Assembly (NCBI GenBank): GCA_014384345.1
Contig: JACNGB010000030.1
Span: 1-58,697, forward strand
Length of the DNA: 58,697 nt
Source of the DNA: Candidatus Thioglobus pontius
GTDB taxonomy: Bacteria > Pseudomonadota > Gammaproteobacteria > PS1 > Pseudothioglobaceae
Direction of reading: 5' to 3'
Each line of letters starts with the position of its first letter. Position 1 is the stretch's first letter. The notes below the pieces were generated by a model. It had not been told where the DNA came from. It was given only the letters and a program-made list of their open reading frames with translations, and made no database searches. Below, one piece after another: positions 23,755 to 31,003 of this stretch. The translations under genes and the position numbers were made by a program.

Positions 23755-25209
23755 TTACCCTTTAAAACAAGGTTGTTTAGAATACTTATCCAATTCCACA
23801 GTTTTATTTTTAAATAATTCAGTATTGGTTACGTGATGAATCGACACCGAGTCTGGATGTTGCTTGGTTAGTTTGTTTAAAGTTTTGCTTTTTTGTGTAC
23901 GTGACATACTATGCCACTGTGCCAACAGGCGACCATTGTTAACTGATTGACCATAAGTTCGATCAGTTGGCTTGATCACCACGGGGATTTCATCAACCTT
24001 GATTTGTGGCGCCCAATGATCGTCAATATCCATCTCATACCAAATTTCTGCAGCTGATTGATAATCAAAGCCTTTAAGCCCTAACGACTTAGCCACTAAA
24101 CAGATAATCTCCCAATCTGGCCTAGACTCGCCCGCTGGTGGCAAAAATGCGTTTTGCTCTAAATAGCGTCTTTCTGAGTTTTTTTGATGGCCAGTTTTCT
24201 CACTCCATGAGCAAGCTGGCAAAACAATATCAGCGTCCTGCGTGGTCAGTGTTTTGGTGAAATCCGAAACAATCAATGTATCAATTTTTCGGTAATTAAT
24301 CATGGAATGGGCTGGATTGGTTGCCATAACCCATAAGACTTTAATTTGATCGGTTGAGAAAAATTCAGTAGCGGTTAAATCGCCAGTGCGAACGCCAATT
24401 TCACGCCCGCCCATCGCATTACATTGCCCTGTAAGTGACAACACACCGCAGCCTGGCTTGTTAATATTGCCAGTATATATATGCGCATTAATCAGTGCGT
24501 TGACTTTGTCAGTGGCATCGGTTGATTGCGTTAACCCCTGGGAATAAATGCTAAGGGTTTTTTTATCTTTAAACCAGGGCTGGTTAACCAAATCATCAAT
24601 CAGCGCCATGTCTCGACCCGGCTCTACTTGGATGAATAAATCTGCTTGTTTGGCTGTGGTGGTTTCATACACATCAACACAGACCACAAAGGCTTTGGAT
24701 TTTCTGACGTGATTAAATACAATGGGATGACAATCAGCGGTGTTACTACCAATAATAAAAATAGTTTCAGCCAAGTAAATATCATCATAAGACACAGGCA
24801 CAATATCTGCACCGTAGGCTCTTTTATTAGCTTCTACGGTTGAATACATACACAGGCGAGAATTACTCTCGATATTTTTAATACCGAAGCTATCGGCAAA
24901 TTTTTTGGCCACATATAAATCTTCCATTAACATTTGCCCAGATAAATACAGGGCGATTTCATGCTTCGGTGTGGTTAAAAAGTGATCACGAATGGTGTGT
25001 ATGGTTTCGTCCCAACTGCCAATTGATGGAGATAACAATCTATCTTCATCAGTGCCAACCGTTTCTAACAAGGTTTGGCCTTTAATACAGAGCATGCCTT
25101 GATTAACAGGCGACGCCTTATCGCCGGTTAACTTTAGGTTTGATCCTGACCGGCTAATTTCAATACCGCAGCCAACGCCACAATAAGGGCAAGTGGTTTT
25201 AAAACTCAT
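23755..25209 (-). CDS. nasA: Compact assimilatory nitrate reductase NasA-like molybdoenzyme
   Basis: 484 residues, far below the roughly 700-900 of NasA/NarB. Key residues stay in frame: [4Fe-4S] ligands Cys7, Cys10, Cys14, Cys41 and the Mo-ligand Cys120 (RLCMYST). Pterin-contact motifs (GSNTADCHP, CNAMGGREIGVR) are present. Several loops are missing, and the C-terminal dinucleotide-binding domain is cut short after WHSMSRTQKSKTLNKL. Only 35 bp separate its stop from mlaC, so the missing end is not encoded in another frame. It ends the nirB operon, which supports an assimilatory role. A shortened but working enzyme or an early decaying one are both possible. Confidence 0.75.
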   Translation of the reverse strand: MSFKTTCPYCGVGCGIEISRSGSNLKLTGDKASPVNQGMLCIKGQTLLETVGTDEDRLLSPSIGSWDETIHTIRDHFLTTPKHEIALYLSGQMLMEDLYVAKKFADSFGIKNIESNSRLCMYSTVEANKRAYGADIVPVSYDDIYLAETIFIIGSNTADCHPIVFNHVRKSKAFVVCVDVYETTTAKQADLFIQVEPGRDMALIDDLVNQPWFKDKKTLSIYSQGLTQSTDATDKVNALINAHIYTGNINKPGCGVLSLTGQCNAMGGREIGVRTGDLTATEFFSTDQIKVLWVMATNPAHSMINYRKIDTLIVSDFTKTLTTQDADIVLPACSWSEKTGHQKNSERRYLEQNAFLPPAGESRPDWEIICLVAKSLGLKGFDYQSAAEIWYEMDIDDHWAPQIKVDEIPVVIKPTDRTYGQSVNNGRLLAQWHSMSRTQKSKTLNKLTKQHPDSVSIHHVTNTELFKNKTVELDKYSKQPCFKG

Positions 25210-25212
25210 TTT

Positions 25213-26916
25213 TTATTTAATAGTTAATAACAACAATAATACAAAATTAATTGCAAAAGAAAAAGCTAACCAGAGTCTGTATTTGTTTAATTCAGCTTCT
25301 GGTTTTTTAGGCTTTGACAGTTTTAGAAATTTCTCATTAGGATGCTCTAAATCGTACAAAAACTCACTCAGCACTTCGTATCTTTTATCTTCATCCAAAC
25401 TGCAAGCCTTACGAATAGCGCCATCAATCCAGATGGGCAAGTTTGGATTTTGCAACAAGGTGGATTCATAGCTTAATTTTGCCAGCTTGTTTCTGGTTAA
25501 ATTTTTATCTAACTTGTCTTGATAGACTAGCTTTGATGAAAACATCTCATACACAATAGCACCCAAACTAAATTGATCCGAAGCCTGTGAGACGCGCCCA
25601 TCCAAAATTACTTCTGGGGCAGTATACCCTTGCGTGCCTTGATTTGTATTAGTATGAATAGGGTTAACCAACTCAGATACGCCTGCAATTCTGACTGAAC
25701 CAAAATCAACAATTTTCACCTGACCAATTTCATTAATCATGATATTTTCAGGTTTAAGATCACCATGAACCATCTCTTGACGATGAAAAGCGCGCATGCC
25801 TTGGATGATCTGCTTAATGATACTAACGGCAATATCTAACTCCGGATTTTTATGTTCATTGATCCAATCTCGCAGAGTTTGGCCTTTGACATACTCCATA
25901 GCATAGGCTAAAAATTGCGCTGAATCATCAGTATTATGAATTTTGACCACATTTGGACTTTGAATACGATTGCCCACCCATTGCTCATACATAAAATGCT
26001 TTAGGTACTCTGGATCATCCTCAAAGTTTACCGATGGGGTTTTAAGCGCAACTAACTGTTTTGTGACTATATCTTTAGCTAAATACAGCTGCATTTTTGC
26101 ACTTGAAACAATCAAAGATTCAATCTCAAAACCATTGATTTTCATACCCTGGGTTAAATCAGGCGGTACTGGGCGTTGTGTAAGCTCGTCAAAAGCTTCA
26201 TCTAAATTCTTCTCAGGTAATTGCCCAATGGTCATGATAAGTGCTGAGATGTTATCTAGACTATTTTTACTCAGTGCACGCTCAACTAAATCTTGCGCAT
26301 TAAGCCCTCGACCCATTAATATTTCCAATAAGGCGTCATCTAAATAATCATGTACACCATCGGTGGTCATTAAAAATTGATCGCCCACTTGTAAATCAAA
26401 GGTCTGATAATCAACATTAACCGTTAGATCAAATCCCATGGCTCTTGAAAGGTAGGTTTTTTCTTTATTCAAACTAAGAATATGATCTTTAGTAAGTTGG
26501 GTCAACACCCCTTGTCGATAGCGATAAATTCTTGAATCACCCACATGAAACAAATGTGCAACATTTGATTTAACAATCAACACACTAAGGGTTGAGAGCA
26601 TGGATGACACTTCATTGGAACGCGCTGATTGCGAGTGCAGCCAATTATTAAGCGCTGAAATAACCTTACTAGCCGAATGCTCCATACTCCAGGATTCAGG
26701 CGTTGAATAATAATCACTCAAAAAACCATTCACGCAACAACTACTGGCTTCTTTAGCTCTTTCACAAGCGCTAACACCATCAGCAATAACCGCGGCAATA
26801 CCTTTAAACTCTAAGGATTTATTATCAGGCATATGATAAGCCACACAATCTTGATTCTCAGGTTTAATACCTGCGATAGAATGTGAATTGATTTGTGCTT
26901 TAAGCTGCTTCATCAT
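25213..26916 (-). CDS. PP2C phosphatase / Ser-Thr kinase fusion with membrane tail
   Basis: 567 residues. Residues 1-235 are a PP2C phosphatase (IADGVSAC, HVGDSRIYRY, TTDGVHDYL acidic metal motifs). Residues about 260-530 are a Hanks-type kinase with ATP lysine 292 (ALKTP), catalytic HGDLKPEN (384-391) and DFG (404-406). Residues about 549-566 form one membrane helix at the C-terminus. All catalytic residues appear intact. Genes of this kind are known in some bacterial nitrate-assimilation clusters. It sits between the nitrate transporter (1-nt overlap) and nasA (3-bp gap), so it may tune transport or reduction by phosphorylation. Its substrate is unknown. Confidence 0.88.
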   Translation of the reverse strand: MMKQLKAQINSHSIAGIKPENQDCVAYHMPDNKSLEFKGIAAVIADGVSACERAKEASSCCVNGFLSDYYSTPESWSMEHSASKVISALNNWLHSQSARSNEVSSMLSTLSVLIVKSNVAHLFHVGDSRIYRYRQGVLTQLTKDHILSLNKEKTYLSRAMGFDLTVNVDYQTFDLQVGDQFLMTTDGVHDYLDDALLEILMGRGLNAQDLVERALSKNSLDNISALIMTIGQLPEKNLDEAFDELTQRPVPPDLTQGMKINGFEIESLIVSSAKMQLYLAKDIVTKQLVALKTPSVNFEDDPEYLKHFMYEQWVGNRIQSPNVVKIHNTDDSAQFLAYAMEYVKGQTLRDWINEHKNPELDIAVSIIKQIIQGMRAFHRQEMVHGDLKPENIMINEIGQVKIVDFGSVRIAGVSELVNPIHTNTNQGTQGYTAPEVILDGRVSQASDQFSLGAIVYEMFSSKLVYQDKLDKNLTRNKLAKLSYESTLLQNPNLPIWIDGAIRKACSLDEDKRYEVLSEFLYDLEHPNEKFLKLSKPKKPEAELNKYRLWLAFSFAINFVLLLLLTIK

Positions 26917-28382
26917 TAATTTAGTTTAATAACCTCAACCGTACCATCATCCAAAACCTCAACCATGTTGCCCTTCGGCTCTTCTAAAAATACAACAATC
27001 AATACCAATACAAGCGCACTAACAAGACCAATAATCATAAAGAATTGATCGTAGTCTACCAAAGTATTAACCGTTAAAAATAACACCGCACCCACATTAC
27101 CAAACGCACCTGCCATGCCGGCAATTTGCCCAGTAAGACGTCTTTGAATCAGTGGTACCATGGCAAACACCGCGCCCGATCCAGCCTTTGAAAAAATACC
27201 GCCAACAATAGTTAACGCCACCACCGGGTAAATTGACCAGCTCTGATCAACATTTCCTAAGGCTAAGAAACTTAAAGCCGTACCACTAAACACCACAATT
27301 AAGATGCGCTTGCGACCAAACTTATCACTCAAATAACCACCACCTGGGCGTGCAACTAAATTAATAAACGGATACACGCCTGCCAATAGCGCCGCAGTAA
27401 TTTTAGGCAATTCAAACCAGTCTACATAGAACATTGCCAACATGGATACCACAGCCAACTCGGTACCAAATGTGACAAAATAGGCCCAATCAAGAATTGC
27501 CACTTGCTTAAACTTGTACTGATGTTGCTTTGGCACAGGATTTTTTAAAATCTCAGCATTGACCTGCCAAGTCTTATACACTTGGAATAAAAATATCATC
27601 ACCAGAGTTGCATACACAATAAGTTCAACCGAGGCTGAAATCATGCCCATATTAGCTGGTGACAACTTCCAAGTAAGTAGCGATAATGCTAAATATAGTG
27701 GAATATTCATTAACACATATAGTATAAAATCTTGTCGATTACTAACTTCCATCGCGCCTGATTTTTTAGGCTTAAAGTAAGTTGATCCCTTTGGTGTATT
27801 AGTTACATTAAAGTAATAAAACACACCGTAAGCAATCGCAACAACACTAGCCATAGTGATTGCATAGCGCCAGCCATCATCGCCACCAAAGCTACTGGCA
27901 ATAAATGGCAGGGTTATCGCTGCACCTGCTGAGCCAAAATTACCCCAACCCCCATAAATACCTTGTGCCAAACCAGTCTGTTTGGCTGGAAACCACTCTG
28001 AAATCATGCGAATACCCACCACAAAACCAGCACCAATAAAGCCTGATAAAAATCGTAACAGTGCCAATTGGTCATACGTTTGCATCCAACTAAAGGCAAT
28101 TGAGATTAATCCACCTAAAATTAGAATAGCACTAAATAGAATTTTTGGTCCATATTTGTCCACCAACATACCCACAACAATTCTTGCAGGAATGGTCATC
28201 GCTACATTAAGAATCAGCAATACTTTGGCTTGTTGATCAGTGAGTGATAACGCCTCTTGAATAAACGGCATCATCGGACCTAAGCCCAACCAGACCACAA
28301 AGGTCATAAAGAAGGCAAACCACGTGAGGTGCAAAATTCGGTATTTGCCGCTAAATGAAAATAGATTTAATTTATCTTTCAT
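26916..28382 (-). CDS. MFS nitrate/nitrite transporter (NarK/NasA family)
   Basis: 488 residues with about 12 membrane helices and the nitrate-signature glycine-rich segments GGWGNFGSAGAA and GMAGAFGNVGAV of the NNP family, plus the inter-helix PARIVVGMLVDKYG. I start it at 28382, where AAAGGAGAT precedes the ATG; a longer frame overlaps nirB. It would import nitrate for assimilation. A hydrophilic C-terminal tail follows the last helix. It lies 14 bp after nirB and overlaps the kinase start by 1 nt. Confidence 0.9.
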   Translation of the reverse strand: MKDKLNLFSFSGKYRILHLTWFAFFMTFVVWLGLGPMMPFIQEALSLTDQQAKVLLILNVAMTIPARIVVGMLVDKYGPKILFSAILILGGLISIAFSWMQTYDQLALLRFLSGFIGAGFVVGIRMISEWFPAKQTGLAQGIYGGWGNFGSAGAAITLPFIASSFGGDDGWRYAITMASVVAIAYGVFYYFNVTNTPKGSTYFKPKKSGAMEVSNRQDFILYVLMNIPLYLALSLLTWKLSPANMGMISASVELIVYATLVMIFLFQVYKTWQVNAEILKNPVPKQHQYKFKQVAILDWAYFVTFGTELAVVSMLAMFYVDWFELPKITAALLAGVYPFINLVARPGGGYLSDKFGRKRILIVVFSGTALSFLALGNVDQSWSIYPVVALTIVGGIFSKAGSGAVFAMVPLIQRRLTGQIAGMAGAFGNVGAVLFLTVNTLVDYDQFFMIIGLVSALVLVLIVVFLEEPKGNMVEVLDDGTVEVIKLN

Positions 28383-28396
28383 AATATCTCCTTTAA

Positions 28397-30778
28397 TTAA
28401 GCAGGTTGCTTTTCTCTGTGATCCGTCGTGACCCAAGGATTTTTAATTGTTTTTGGCAACTGATCTGCCCAGGTTTTAATCTTTTCAGCTGTATCTAATT
28501 TTGATTGAATGTAATCTAGACCAACACGTTCCTCAAAATGCATCACTCGCTCAAGATAGTTAGCTTCAACTCGGTAGAGCTGCACAAAGGCTTTAAGGTA
28601 TTCAACCACCTCAGCTTCAGTTTCAAAGAAACGATCTTTTAAACATGCCTTGGTGCGAATACCGCACGCGCCAGCCACGTGGATCTCGTAACCTTTCTCG
28701 GTACAGATAACACCAAAATCTTTAATGGTTGCTTCTGCGCAATTGCGAGGACAGCCACTTACACCCATCTTGAATTTGTGTGGCATAAAGTGCGACCAAA
28801 CAGCATCTTCCATTTTCACCGATAAGCCCATTGAGTCTTGTGTGCCCATTAAACAGTGATCCGAACCAACACAAGATTTACACGTTCTGGTTGCTTTACC
28901 ATAAGCGTAGCCAGATTCCATACCAGCTGCAGCAATTTCATCCCACATATCATTTAAGTTATCTTTAGCAATGCCCAATAAATCAATACGCTGACCACCC
29001 GTAACCTTAACGGTTGGCACCTCATATTTAACCGCAATATCTGCCAAGGCTTTAAGCTCCGATGGCGTTGTTAAGCCACCTTGCATTTGCGGCACAATGG
29101 AATAGGTGCCATCATTTTGTAAATTAGCATGCATCATTTCATTGTGAGGACGTTCTTTATCATTGTGCTCATAAGCTTCATTAAACTGAGACGATAAATA
29201 GTAGTTAATCGCAGCGCCACATTTTTCGCAAGATCCGTCAAACTCTAATGCAGATCTAACTTCATCAATACTAGCAACTTCTTCTAACAATCTAACATGC
29301 TCACGCACCTCTTCTGTTGAATGGTTTGTGCAATCACACAAGGTGTCTTTAGCCACCAGTTCAGCGCCAGAGACAAAGCTAAATACCTGTTTAGCCACTG
29401 ATGCACAACCACCACAGCCTGTTGCGCAGCCAGTCTCTTTCTGCATTGATTCAAAGGTATCGCAGCCATTAGAAACCGCAGTAACAATATCACCTTTGGT
29501 CACACCCAAACAGCCACATACTTGCTCATCGTCCGCCATTTTTTCAACACCAGAGGCACCTGCACTCGCTTCATCAATATTAATATCGCCAAATAATAGG
29601 GTTTTACGAATATCGGTAATATCGGTTTCATTTTTAATCAAATCAAAATAAAACAAACCATCAGTTGAATCACCAAATAACACTGCGCCCACTAATTTAT
29701 TATCCCGAATTGATAAGCGCTTTCTCGTGTTTAACGAATGGTCTTTCGAGCACATAACTTCATCATCTTCATTATTAAATTCACCCGCTGAGAAAACATC
29801 CACACCAGAGATTTTTAATTTGGTTGAAACGTCTGAGCCAGTGTACATATGATGATTAACCTCACAAATCTGTTCAGCACACACTCGCGCCTGTTCAAAT
29901 AATGGCGCCACCAAACCGTAAGTCGCCCCTCGGTGTTTAATACACTCACCTACTGAATAAATAACTGGGTCAGAGGTCATCATTGTGTCGCCCACCATAA
30001 TGCCGCGATCTGTATGCAAACCAGCTGAAGCAGCTAGCGTGTCTTCTGGCACAATGCCAACCGACATGACCACCATATCTGTCTCTAGTTGAGTACCATC
30101 TTCAAACTCTAAAGCTTCAACTTTGGTCTCACCGATAATTTTGGTGGAGATAGCATTCATTTTAAAGTTGATGTTTTTATCTTCCAGCACCTTTTGCAAT
30201 AGGCCGCCTGATGAAGCATCAAGCTGCATATTCATGATAGAGCCAGAATTACCAATAACCGTTACCTCATAACCTAACTCATTAAGTCCATTAGCCGCCT
30301 CAAGGCCTAATAACCCCGTACCAATCACTGCCACTTTTGCTGATTTTCCAACTTGAGCTTTCATGTACGCTACATCGTAAATATCTCTAAACGAAACCAC
30401 GCCTTCTAAATCATTACCAGGCAATGGCAAAATAAAAGGTCTTGAACCGGTACAAATAACTAATCGATCATAACTAATGTCATAAGATTCTTTTTCATTA
30501 GTTAATAAGACGGTTTTTTTCAAGCGATCAATTGACGTTACTGAACAGCCAGGCTTAAAGGTAATGTTATTTTGTGAGAAATAACCCTCGTCATGGGTTT
30601 TAATTTCATCAAACTCTTTTTCACCTGAGAGTACCGGAGAAAGCATAATACGATTGTAAGGCAGTTCTTTTTCTTCACCAATAATGGTGATTTGATACAT
30701 CAGTGGGTCAATCTTTAATACTTCGTCCACCACTTTCATTGCACTCATACCCGAACCAATAATTACTAAATTTTTCAT
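28397..30778 (-). CDS. nirB: Assimilatory NAD(P)H nitrite reductase, large subunit
   Basis: 793 residues. Domains: FAD/NAD-binding (1-~400, Rossmann motifs GSGMSAMKVVDE and VAVIGTGLLGLEAA), a BFD-type [2Fe-2S] site (CGCLGV...CATGCGGC), a second cysteine set (CDC...CEKC), and the C-terminal sirohaem/[4Fe-4S] domain (CKSCVGSDHC, GCPRNC). It reduces nitrite to ammonium with NAD(P)H in the cytoplasm. No nirD is adjacent. It heads the assimilatory operon behind a leader of about 213 nt with two loop-hairpins and two terminators. NirB is normally about 840 residues, so this one is slightly short. Confidence 0.93.
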   Translation of the reverse strand: MKNLVIIGSGMSAMKVVDEVLKIDPLMYQITIIGEEKELPYNRIMLSPVLSGEKEFDEIKTHDEGYFSQNNITFKPGCSVTSIDRLKKTVLLTNEKESYDISYDRLVICTGSRPFILPLPGNDLEGVVSFRDIYDVAYMKAQVGKSAKVAVIGTGLLGLEAANGLNELGYEVTVIGNSGSIMNMQLDASSGGLLQKVLEDKNINFKMNAISTKIIGETKVEALEFEDGTQLETDMVVMSVGIVPEDTLAASAGLHTDRGIMVGDTMMTSDPVIYSVGECIKHRGATYGLVAPLFEQARVCAEQICEVNHHMYTGSDVSTKLKISGVDVFSAGEFNNEDDEVMCSKDHSLNTRKRLSIRDNKLVGAVLFGDSTDGLFYFDLIKNETDITDIRKTLLFGDINIDEASAGASGVEKMADDEQVCGCLGVTKGDIVTAVSNGCDTFESMQKETGCATGCGGCASVAKQVFSFVSGAELVAKDTLCDCTNHSTEEVREHVRLLEEVASIDEVRSALEFDGSCEKCGAAINYYLSSQFNEAYEHNDKERPHNEMMHANLQNDGTYSIVPQMQGGLTTPSELKALADIAVKYEVPTVKVTGGQRIDLLGIAKDNLNDMWDEIAAAGMESGYAYGKATRTCKSCVGSDHCLMGTQDSMGLSVKMEDAVWSHFMPHKFKMGVSGCPRNCAEATIKDFGVICTEKGYEIHVAGACGIRTKACLKDRFFETEAEVVEYLKAFVQLYRVEANYLERVMHFEERVGLDYIQSKLDTAEKIKTWADQLPKTIKNPWVTTDHREKQPA

Positions 30779-30819
30779 CTTATTTCTCTCTTATTATTAA
30801 CTTTCTTTAAACCAAAAAA

Positions 30820-30866
30820 AAGCCAGTTATCCCGTTTGTAAATCAATACAACACGATAACCGGCTT
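30820..30866 (-). terminator. nirB leader terminator 2
   Basis: AAGCCGGTTATC pairs with GATAACTGGCTT (one G-U), extended by an inner stem, and seven U follow on the minus strand (30820-30814). It lies 36 nt before the nirB start codon, so uncontrolled transcription should stop here. Confidence 0.8.
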
Positions 30867-30880
30867 CAATACCAAAGTTA

Positions 30881-30902
30881 CCAATCTCATCTTTGAAATT
30901 GG
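30881..30902 (-). promoter_or_regulatory. nirB leader hairpin P2 with hexaloop AAAGAU
   Basis: CCAATTTC, loop AAAGAT, GAGATTGG: an 8-bp stem with one G-U pair and a six-base loop with A at 1 and G at 4, the feature recognised by ANTAR-domain antiterminators. It lies between terminators 1 and 2. Confidence 0.55.
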
Positions 30903-30910
30903 CAAAAAAA

Positions 30911-30955
30911 AGACGCTTATTTAAGATCTTTCAAAAAAGATTTAAATAAACGTCT
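30911..30955 (-). terminator. nirB leader terminator 1
   Basis: AGACGTTTATTTAA pairs with TTAAATAAGCGTCT, with an inner stem ATCTTT/AAAGAT, and seven U follow (30910-30904). It is a strong intrinsic-terminator shape about 35 nt into the predicted transcript. Confidence 0.8.
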
Positions 30956-30964
30956 GTGTTTGTT

Positions 30965-30989
30965 GTTATTCCCGTCTTTGGAAACTAAC
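30965..30989 (-). promoter_or_regulatory. nirB leader hairpin P1 with hexaloop AAAGAC
   Basis: GTT-AG-TTTCC, loop AAAGAC, GGGAA-T-AAC: a 5-bp stem with one G-U pair, extended by a 3-bp outer stem beyond an internal loop. The hexaloop again has A1 and G4 and differs from P2 only in its last base. It lies at the very 5' end of the predicted transcript. Confidence 0.5.
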
Positions 30990-30997
30990 TAATTGAA

Positions 30998-31003
30998 ATT
31001 ATA
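30998..31003 (-). promoter_or_regulatory. nirB -10 box
   Basis: A perfect TATAAT on the minus strand, predicting a start near 30991 just before hairpin P1. The -35 position (TGCTAA) is poor, which would fit dependence on an activator. The 302-bp gap between nirB and moaE is otherwise explained by the leader and the moaE promoter. Confidence 0.55.

Follow-up and report, generated by a model that had tools for sequence, protein, structure and literature searches.

A putative tandem of ANTAR-type attenuators in the nirB leader of Candidatus Thioglobus pontius

The nirB operon and its leader

The window, by which we mean the whole stretch of DNA analyzed, comprises 58,697 nt from Candidatus Thioglobus pontius (GCA_014384345.1, contig JACNGB010000030.1, forward strand 1-58,697). 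The Thioglobus/SUP05 family consists of marine sulfur-oxidizing bacteria. On the minus strand of the window, nirB is the first gene of an operon, and its leader sits between nirB and a divergent moaE-like gene. The features of the leader and operon are given below in the order of transcription, with the basis for each in parentheses.

30998-31003, minus strand: TATAAT, presumed -10 element (read from sequence)
30965-30989, minus strand: hairpin P1 of module 1, GUUA-(G)-UUUCC-AAAGAC-GGGAA-UAAC, hexaloop at 30974-30979 (fold and motif scan)
30945-30964, minus strand: hairpin P2 of module 1 (antiterminator), AAAC-ACAGAC-GUUU core, hexaloop at 30952-30957 (motif scan)
30911-30955, minus strand: terminator 1 stem-loop, -18.1 kcal/mol (fold)
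30904-30911, minus strand: U8 tract of terminator 1 (sequence)
30881-30902, minus strand: hairpin P1' of module 2, CCAAUUUC-AAAGAU-GAGAUUGG, hexaloop at 30889-30894 (fold and motif scan)
30861-30874, minus strand: hairpin P2' of module 2 (antiterminator), UGGU-AUUGAA-GCCG, hexaloop at 30865-30870 (motif scan)
30822-30864, minus strand: terminator 2 stem-loop, -21.6 kcal/mol (fold)
30814-30821, minus strand: U8 tract of terminator 2 (sequence)
28397-30778, minus strand: nirB, encoding the large subunit of nitrite reductase (793 aa) and heading the operon (TIGR02374, 763.7 bits)
26916-28391, minus strand: NarK-type nitrate/nitrite MFS transporter (TIGR00886, 301 bits, slightly below the cut-off)
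25213-26916, minus strand: PP2C phosphatase and protein kinase fusion in the nirB operon (domain matches)
23755-25209, minus strand: molybdopterin oxidoreductase in the nirB operon, likely an assimilatory nitrate reductase (domain and family matches)

The fusion of a PP2C phosphatase with a serine/threonine-type kinase is thus located between narK and the reductase gene of a nitrate-assimilation operon. The nitrate reductase-like protein is 484 aa long, with just two Pfam domains and without the usual C-terminal molybdopterin-binding domain; NasC models span approximately 700 positions.

In the published descriptions, an ANTAR target consists of two hexaloop hairpins, P1 and P2, each with A at loop position 1 and G at position 4 (A1/G4), with P2 sharing sequence with a terminator (PMC3369931, PMC8934654, PMC3369936). 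The window sequence, its predicted fold, and a motif scan together reveal four hexaloop hairpins and two terminators in the nirB leader, which very probably constitutes two complete, canonical ANTAR dual-hexaloop attenuators in series. The 3' arm of P2 (GUUU) is part of the 5' arm of terminator 1, and the 3' arm of P2' (GCCG) opens the 5' arm of terminator 2. The antiterminator hairpins are weak compared to the terminators (-0.4 kcal/mol for P2 and -2.8 kcal/mol for P2', versus -18.1 and -21.6 kcal/mol), and P2 by itself is barely stable in the nearest-neighbor model. The linkers between core stems measure 7 nt (P1-P2) and 6 nt (P1'-P2'), or 3 nt for module 1 when the outer P1 stem is included. 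In the eut genes this linker is 5-12 nt, a range that holds both core-stem values, and lengths of 3 or 14 nt impaired EutV action (PMC3369931). A scan of both strands of the window for a P1 hexaloop, a P2 hexaloop, and a terminator overlapping P2, a pattern whose elements came from the literature but which was implemented once the leader had already been inspected, returned two matches, both in the nirB leader and 85 nt apart; the same scan returned none on 60 Markov shuffles.

A first-pass annotation of this DNA had correctly placed the P1 loop AAAGAC at 30974-30979 on the minus strand, as well as the order of terminator 1, terminator 2, and nirB (start at 30778), although both U tracts, read there as U7, are U8. 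It had also recognized the AAAGAT hairpin at 30889-30894 but took it for P2, whereas it is P1' of module 2, and it assigned one loop hairpin to each terminator, whereas the module scan finds a full P1 and P2 pair at each. P2 and P2' had been missed because they overlap the terminators: the minimum-energy fold returns P1, terminator 1, the AAAGAT hairpin, and terminator 2 and omits the weaker, mutually exclusive alternatives, which misled the pairing.

The TATAAT box occupies the same position in homologous leaders, and from it transcription presumably starts at about the point where P1 begins. A consensus promoter scan found no minus-strand promoter here, and the box lacks a good -35 element. 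Neither terminator was reported by a consensus terminator scan, the limits of which are exceeded by both stems, and Rfam searches of the leader at gathering and relaxed thresholds returned no relevant family.

Conservation of the leader and its targets

Among the 83 genomes of the family, 72 gave a match to a leader covariance model, and an ANTAR protein was found in 68. For comparative analysis, loci were picked by protein similarity, yielding a set of 57 leaders (28 upstream of nirB and 29 upstream of glnK) from which nirB of G061, carrying an insertion, and glnK of G073, without a leader, were excluded. In the former (L067), approximately 150 extra bases lie between terminator 2 and nirB, apparently an insertion after the leader. 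The tandem layout is kept in the 57 homologous leaders with rare exceptions. In the P1 loop, A1 is present in 56 of 57 leaders and G4 in 57 of 57, the latter count being slightly favored by an extraction anchor pattern that contained G4. A1 and G4 of the P2 loop are invariant in 45 aligned module-1 sequences, and in 46 module-2 sequences the P2' loop has an invariant A1 and a G4 in at least 90%. The loops vary at other positions, namely 3 and 6 in P1 and 2 and 3 in P2.

Pairing is likewise preserved among the homologues, at 98.5% for the P1 inner stem, 99.4% for the P2 stem, and 99.0% for P1 and P2 together. The stem of terminator 1 is 97.6% paired, with changes on both sides in 7 of 11 pairs, and that of terminator 2 is 97.1% paired, with such changes in 8 of 9 pairs; the P2' stem is 96.4% paired with little covariation. 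Neither terminator includes the 5' arm of its P2 or P2' hairpin, so the conserved pairing of P2 and P2' does not simply follow from that of the terminators. In the nirB leader of G010, P2 reads AGAC/GUCU and terminator 1 is altered to match, so that both alternatives are preserved. These results answer two of the checks proposed in the first-pass annotation: the loops keep A1/G4 while the stems vary with pairing intact, rather than the loops drifting, and the genome does encode an ANTAR protein, exactly one. As the annotation had said, none was seen in the window, and the one protein lies elsewhere.

The most variable hairpin is P1', which is always present with either a hexaloop or a pentaloop. 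Of the 29 glnK leaders, 17 carry a pentaloop here (e.g., AUGAG, AAGAU), as do some of the nirB leaders, with the G still third from the 3' end of the loop. Roughly half of the glnK leaders (L068-L097) show the form A[A/U/C]G.., which was also seen at nirB of the smallest symbiont genomes. In the nirB leaders of G063 and G068, P1' is without an A1/G4 loop, and in that of G066 the shared 5' arm of P2' and terminator 2 is deleted, so that module 2 is partly lost. In the complete genome of G001, an intact tandem leader precedes an nirB fragment of approximately 95 codons (L134, C1:1266279-1266765), implying that the leader can outlive its gene.

Additional targets in the family, named by eye from translated starts, are narK, serB, serC, a urea-type ABC transporter, a porin, and an aldolase. 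Tandem modules occur at nirB, glnK, narK, serB, and the urea-type transporter, and single modules before serC and the porin. Two almost identical modules precede the urea-type ABC transporter gene of G058 (L143, about 180-400), an apparent case of recent tandem duplication of the attenuator, as judged from the sequences. Among 54 further ANTAR loci, many of which are too short to hold a leader, the tandem was found in 20 with pentaloops allowed and in 8 without. Beyond the family, an order-level search returned just Thioglobus/SUP05 again, and in 369 sampled gammaproteobacterial genomes (4 of them in the family), the only match of the family-specific model elsewhere was a marginal one, to a single canonical module before an NirB-like gene in G134. 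Of 26 nirB loci outside the family, 21 could be scanned upstream, giving one weak module-like match.

The ANTAR protein and a proposed mechanism

The sole ANTAR protein of the genome, 194 aa in length, is encoded on a contig (C14) other than that of the nirB leader, as the last gene of a series that runs glnK, amtB, CBS-domain protein, ANTAR (L002:4756-7713). In nearly all relatives read the ANTAR gene follows amtB, and the intervening CBS gene is present in some genera only. Apart from a pentaloop in P1', the glnK leader (L002 4756-4934) is laid out like that of nirB, and a genome search with the module 1 covariance model returned the nirB and glnK leaders and otherwise an antisense echo alone, a weak plus-strand match in the nirB leader that was put down to the palindrome of the terminator being read in reverse. 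The ANTAR gene thus appears to belong to an operon under its own target, an arrangement that suggests positive feedback.

The protein matches only response-regulator and ANTAR domains, and proteins closely related to it occur in Ca. Thioglobus/SUP05, Bathymodiolus gill symbionts, Ca. Ruthia, Ca. Vesicomyosocius, and Ca. Pseudothioglobus. Its closest solved structures are Rv1626 and EutV, with NasR and AmiR more distant, and in an alignment that included the family, the EutV RNA-contact residues R142, K143, K147, Y164, and M172 all have identical equivalents. At the position of the phospho-acceptor Asp the protein carries Asn, invariant across 14 aligned family members, and it is therefore probably a pseudo-receiver like that of AmiR. 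The search for a sigma-54-activator domain gave a weak AAA+ background of 33 bits in this genome, compared to approximately 225 bits in true activators, which were found in about a dozen of the 83 family genomes but not in this one. This suggests that NtrC is absent here, and NtrC-type control seems to have been lost across most of the family.

The single ANTAR protein, the A1/G4 loops that are kept, and the stems that vary with pairing preserved together make ANTAR-type control of the nirB leader strongly supported at the level of sequence. Given that the terminators are far stronger than P2 and P2', termination would be the default, with RNA polymerase facing terminator 1 and then, on passing it, terminator 2, and the protein would have to stabilize P2 and P2' before the 3' arms of the terminators emerge. 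We propose that it binds the A1/G4 hexaloops of P1 and P2, and next those of P1' and P2', as each emerges, and that with P2 and P2' held, both terminators would be blocked and nirB-narK-(PP2C/kinase)-nas transcribed. Both switches must probably be opened by this one protein before nirB and before glnK-amtB can be transcribed, and its supply would come from its own tandem-controlled glnK-amtB-CBS-ANTAR operon by autoregulation. Two gates in series would multiply their leak and need two binding events, from which we would expect less leak and a sharper response. The glnK-amtB context makes nitrogen status the probable trigger. Tentatively, and with more doubt than confidence, we suggest that in this family a pseudo-receiver ANTAR protein, encoded beside GlnK-AmtB and acting on a steep, low-leak double gate, could be the main nitrogen-status regulator, replacing NtrBC and NasS-NasT, with the signal arriving via GlnK/AmtB or the CBS neighbor.

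The most serious competing explanation is that both modules work but the tandem is redundancy left by duplication, with no gain over a single module. Single and tandem leaders coexist in the family, and the nearly identical modules of the G058 urea-type leader fit such an origin; however, two diverged modules are kept almost throughout the nirB and glnK leaders examined, across many genera, with one partial loss (nirB of G066), and this retention suggests selection for two, so we regard redundancy as rather unlikely. It is improbable that module 1 alone is regulated, with module 2 a relic or its terminator overcome in some other way. The frequent pentaloops of P1', the sparse covariation in P2', the partial loss in G066, and the single modules before serC and the porin would all be accommodated, but a strong terminator left unopened would block nirB, and yet terminator 2 shows compensatory changes in most of its pairs. 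Moreover, the P2' loop, which lies mostly outside the terminator 2 stem, retains A1/G4, and the tandem recurs at all five of the genes noted above.

The pairing put forward in the first-pass annotation, in which P1 is joined with the AAAGAT hairpin as a single ANTAR pair and each of the two has its own terminator, for two-step or combinatorial control unlike that of known leaders, appears highly improbable. In its favor, the two hairpins of this genome both carry A1/G4 hexaloops, and the minimum-energy fold is dominated by them. Against it, each has an A1/G4 partner closer by that shares sequence with the following terminator, the arrangement of known leaders, and P2 and P2' hold A1/G4 better than does the AAAGAT hairpin. 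P1 and the AAAGAT hairpin are also 85 nt apart, whereas EutV action was already impaired at linkers of 3 or 14 nt (PMC3369931). We give least credence to control of another kind, by a leader peptide or an undescribed riboswitch, with the hexaloops incidental. A 15-codon frame begins inside P1' in this genome and no Rfam family matched, but the ATG of this frame, the sole short one noticed, is absent in many homologues (e.g., AAAGTAGAG), and leader-peptide attenuation was rejected on this basis. No conserved core remains outside the two modules, and the A1/G4 conservation and the overlap of P2 with the terminator fit an ANTAR target. Two canonical ANTAR modules in series remain our preferred reading of the leader.

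Comparison with known ANTAR systems

Bacteria of the SUP05/Thioglobus group, together with related symbionts of mussels and clams, are important to marine sulfur and nitrogen cycling, and a brief literature search found no paper on control of their nitrogen genes; the tandem leader names a regulator and predicts its regulon. Tandem ANTAR gates at nirB and glnK also offer a natural test of serial protein-dependent attenuators with respect to leak, threshold, and cooperativity. An ANTAR dimer cannot hold both loops simultaneously (PMC8934654), and the tandem bears on how such a dimer works along successive hairpins.

The Klebsiella nasF leader, controlled by NasR, is likewise a nitrate-assimilation leader with P1/P2 hexaloops and a terminator (PMC7496416, PMC3369936), and the NasR ANTAR domain is similar (4akk, E 4.5e-14). 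However, nasF has one module, and NasR senses nitrate via an NIT domain, for which the 194-aa Thioglobus protein gave no match, and membership in the NasR group was rejected accordingly. The NasS-NasT system likewise has a REC-ANTAR protein, with nitrate/nitrite assimilation leaders as its target (PMC3795266, PMC6759348), but the Thioglobus ANTAR gene is instead located beside glnK-amtB, and a search for a NasS homologue found no PF13379 match in this 99.76% complete genome, compared to matches in 12 of 14 control genomes, so this membership was rejected as well. The first-pass annotation had named proteins of both these types, NasR and NasT. AmiR (1qo0) has in common a pseudo-receiver not controlled by phosphorylation (PMC3369936), but the sequence match is weak (E 3e-5) and the glnK operon is without an AmiC-like partner.

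The closest parallel in leader design is the eut system of Enterococcus faecalis, which has the same A1/G4 hexaloop pair, a P2 overlapping an intrinsic terminator, and a short linker (PMC3369931, PMC8934654), and EutV (6wsh) aligns along the length of the REC-ANTAR protein (E 7.7e-20). EutVW differs in having a phospho-acceptor Asp in the receiver where the Thioglobus protein has Asn. In 2012, ANTAR elements were predicted upstream of genes for P-II, ammonium, urea, and nitrate/nitrite transporters, and nitrite reductase, including at least 13 elements at six transcription units in Desulfotomaculum acetoxidans (PMC3369931). Two complete modules in one leader are not described in the text available from that study of regulons (Ramesh et al. 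2012), where 13 elements at six units leave room for them, and we found no description in the other ANTAR literature examined. The nirB leader is thus known ANTAR machinery in a conserved tandem arrangement, for which we infer protein binding and the regulatory logic. What sets it apart is that one gene is preceded by two canonical modules, each complete, in series, in contrast with eut, where one module stands at each of four genes.
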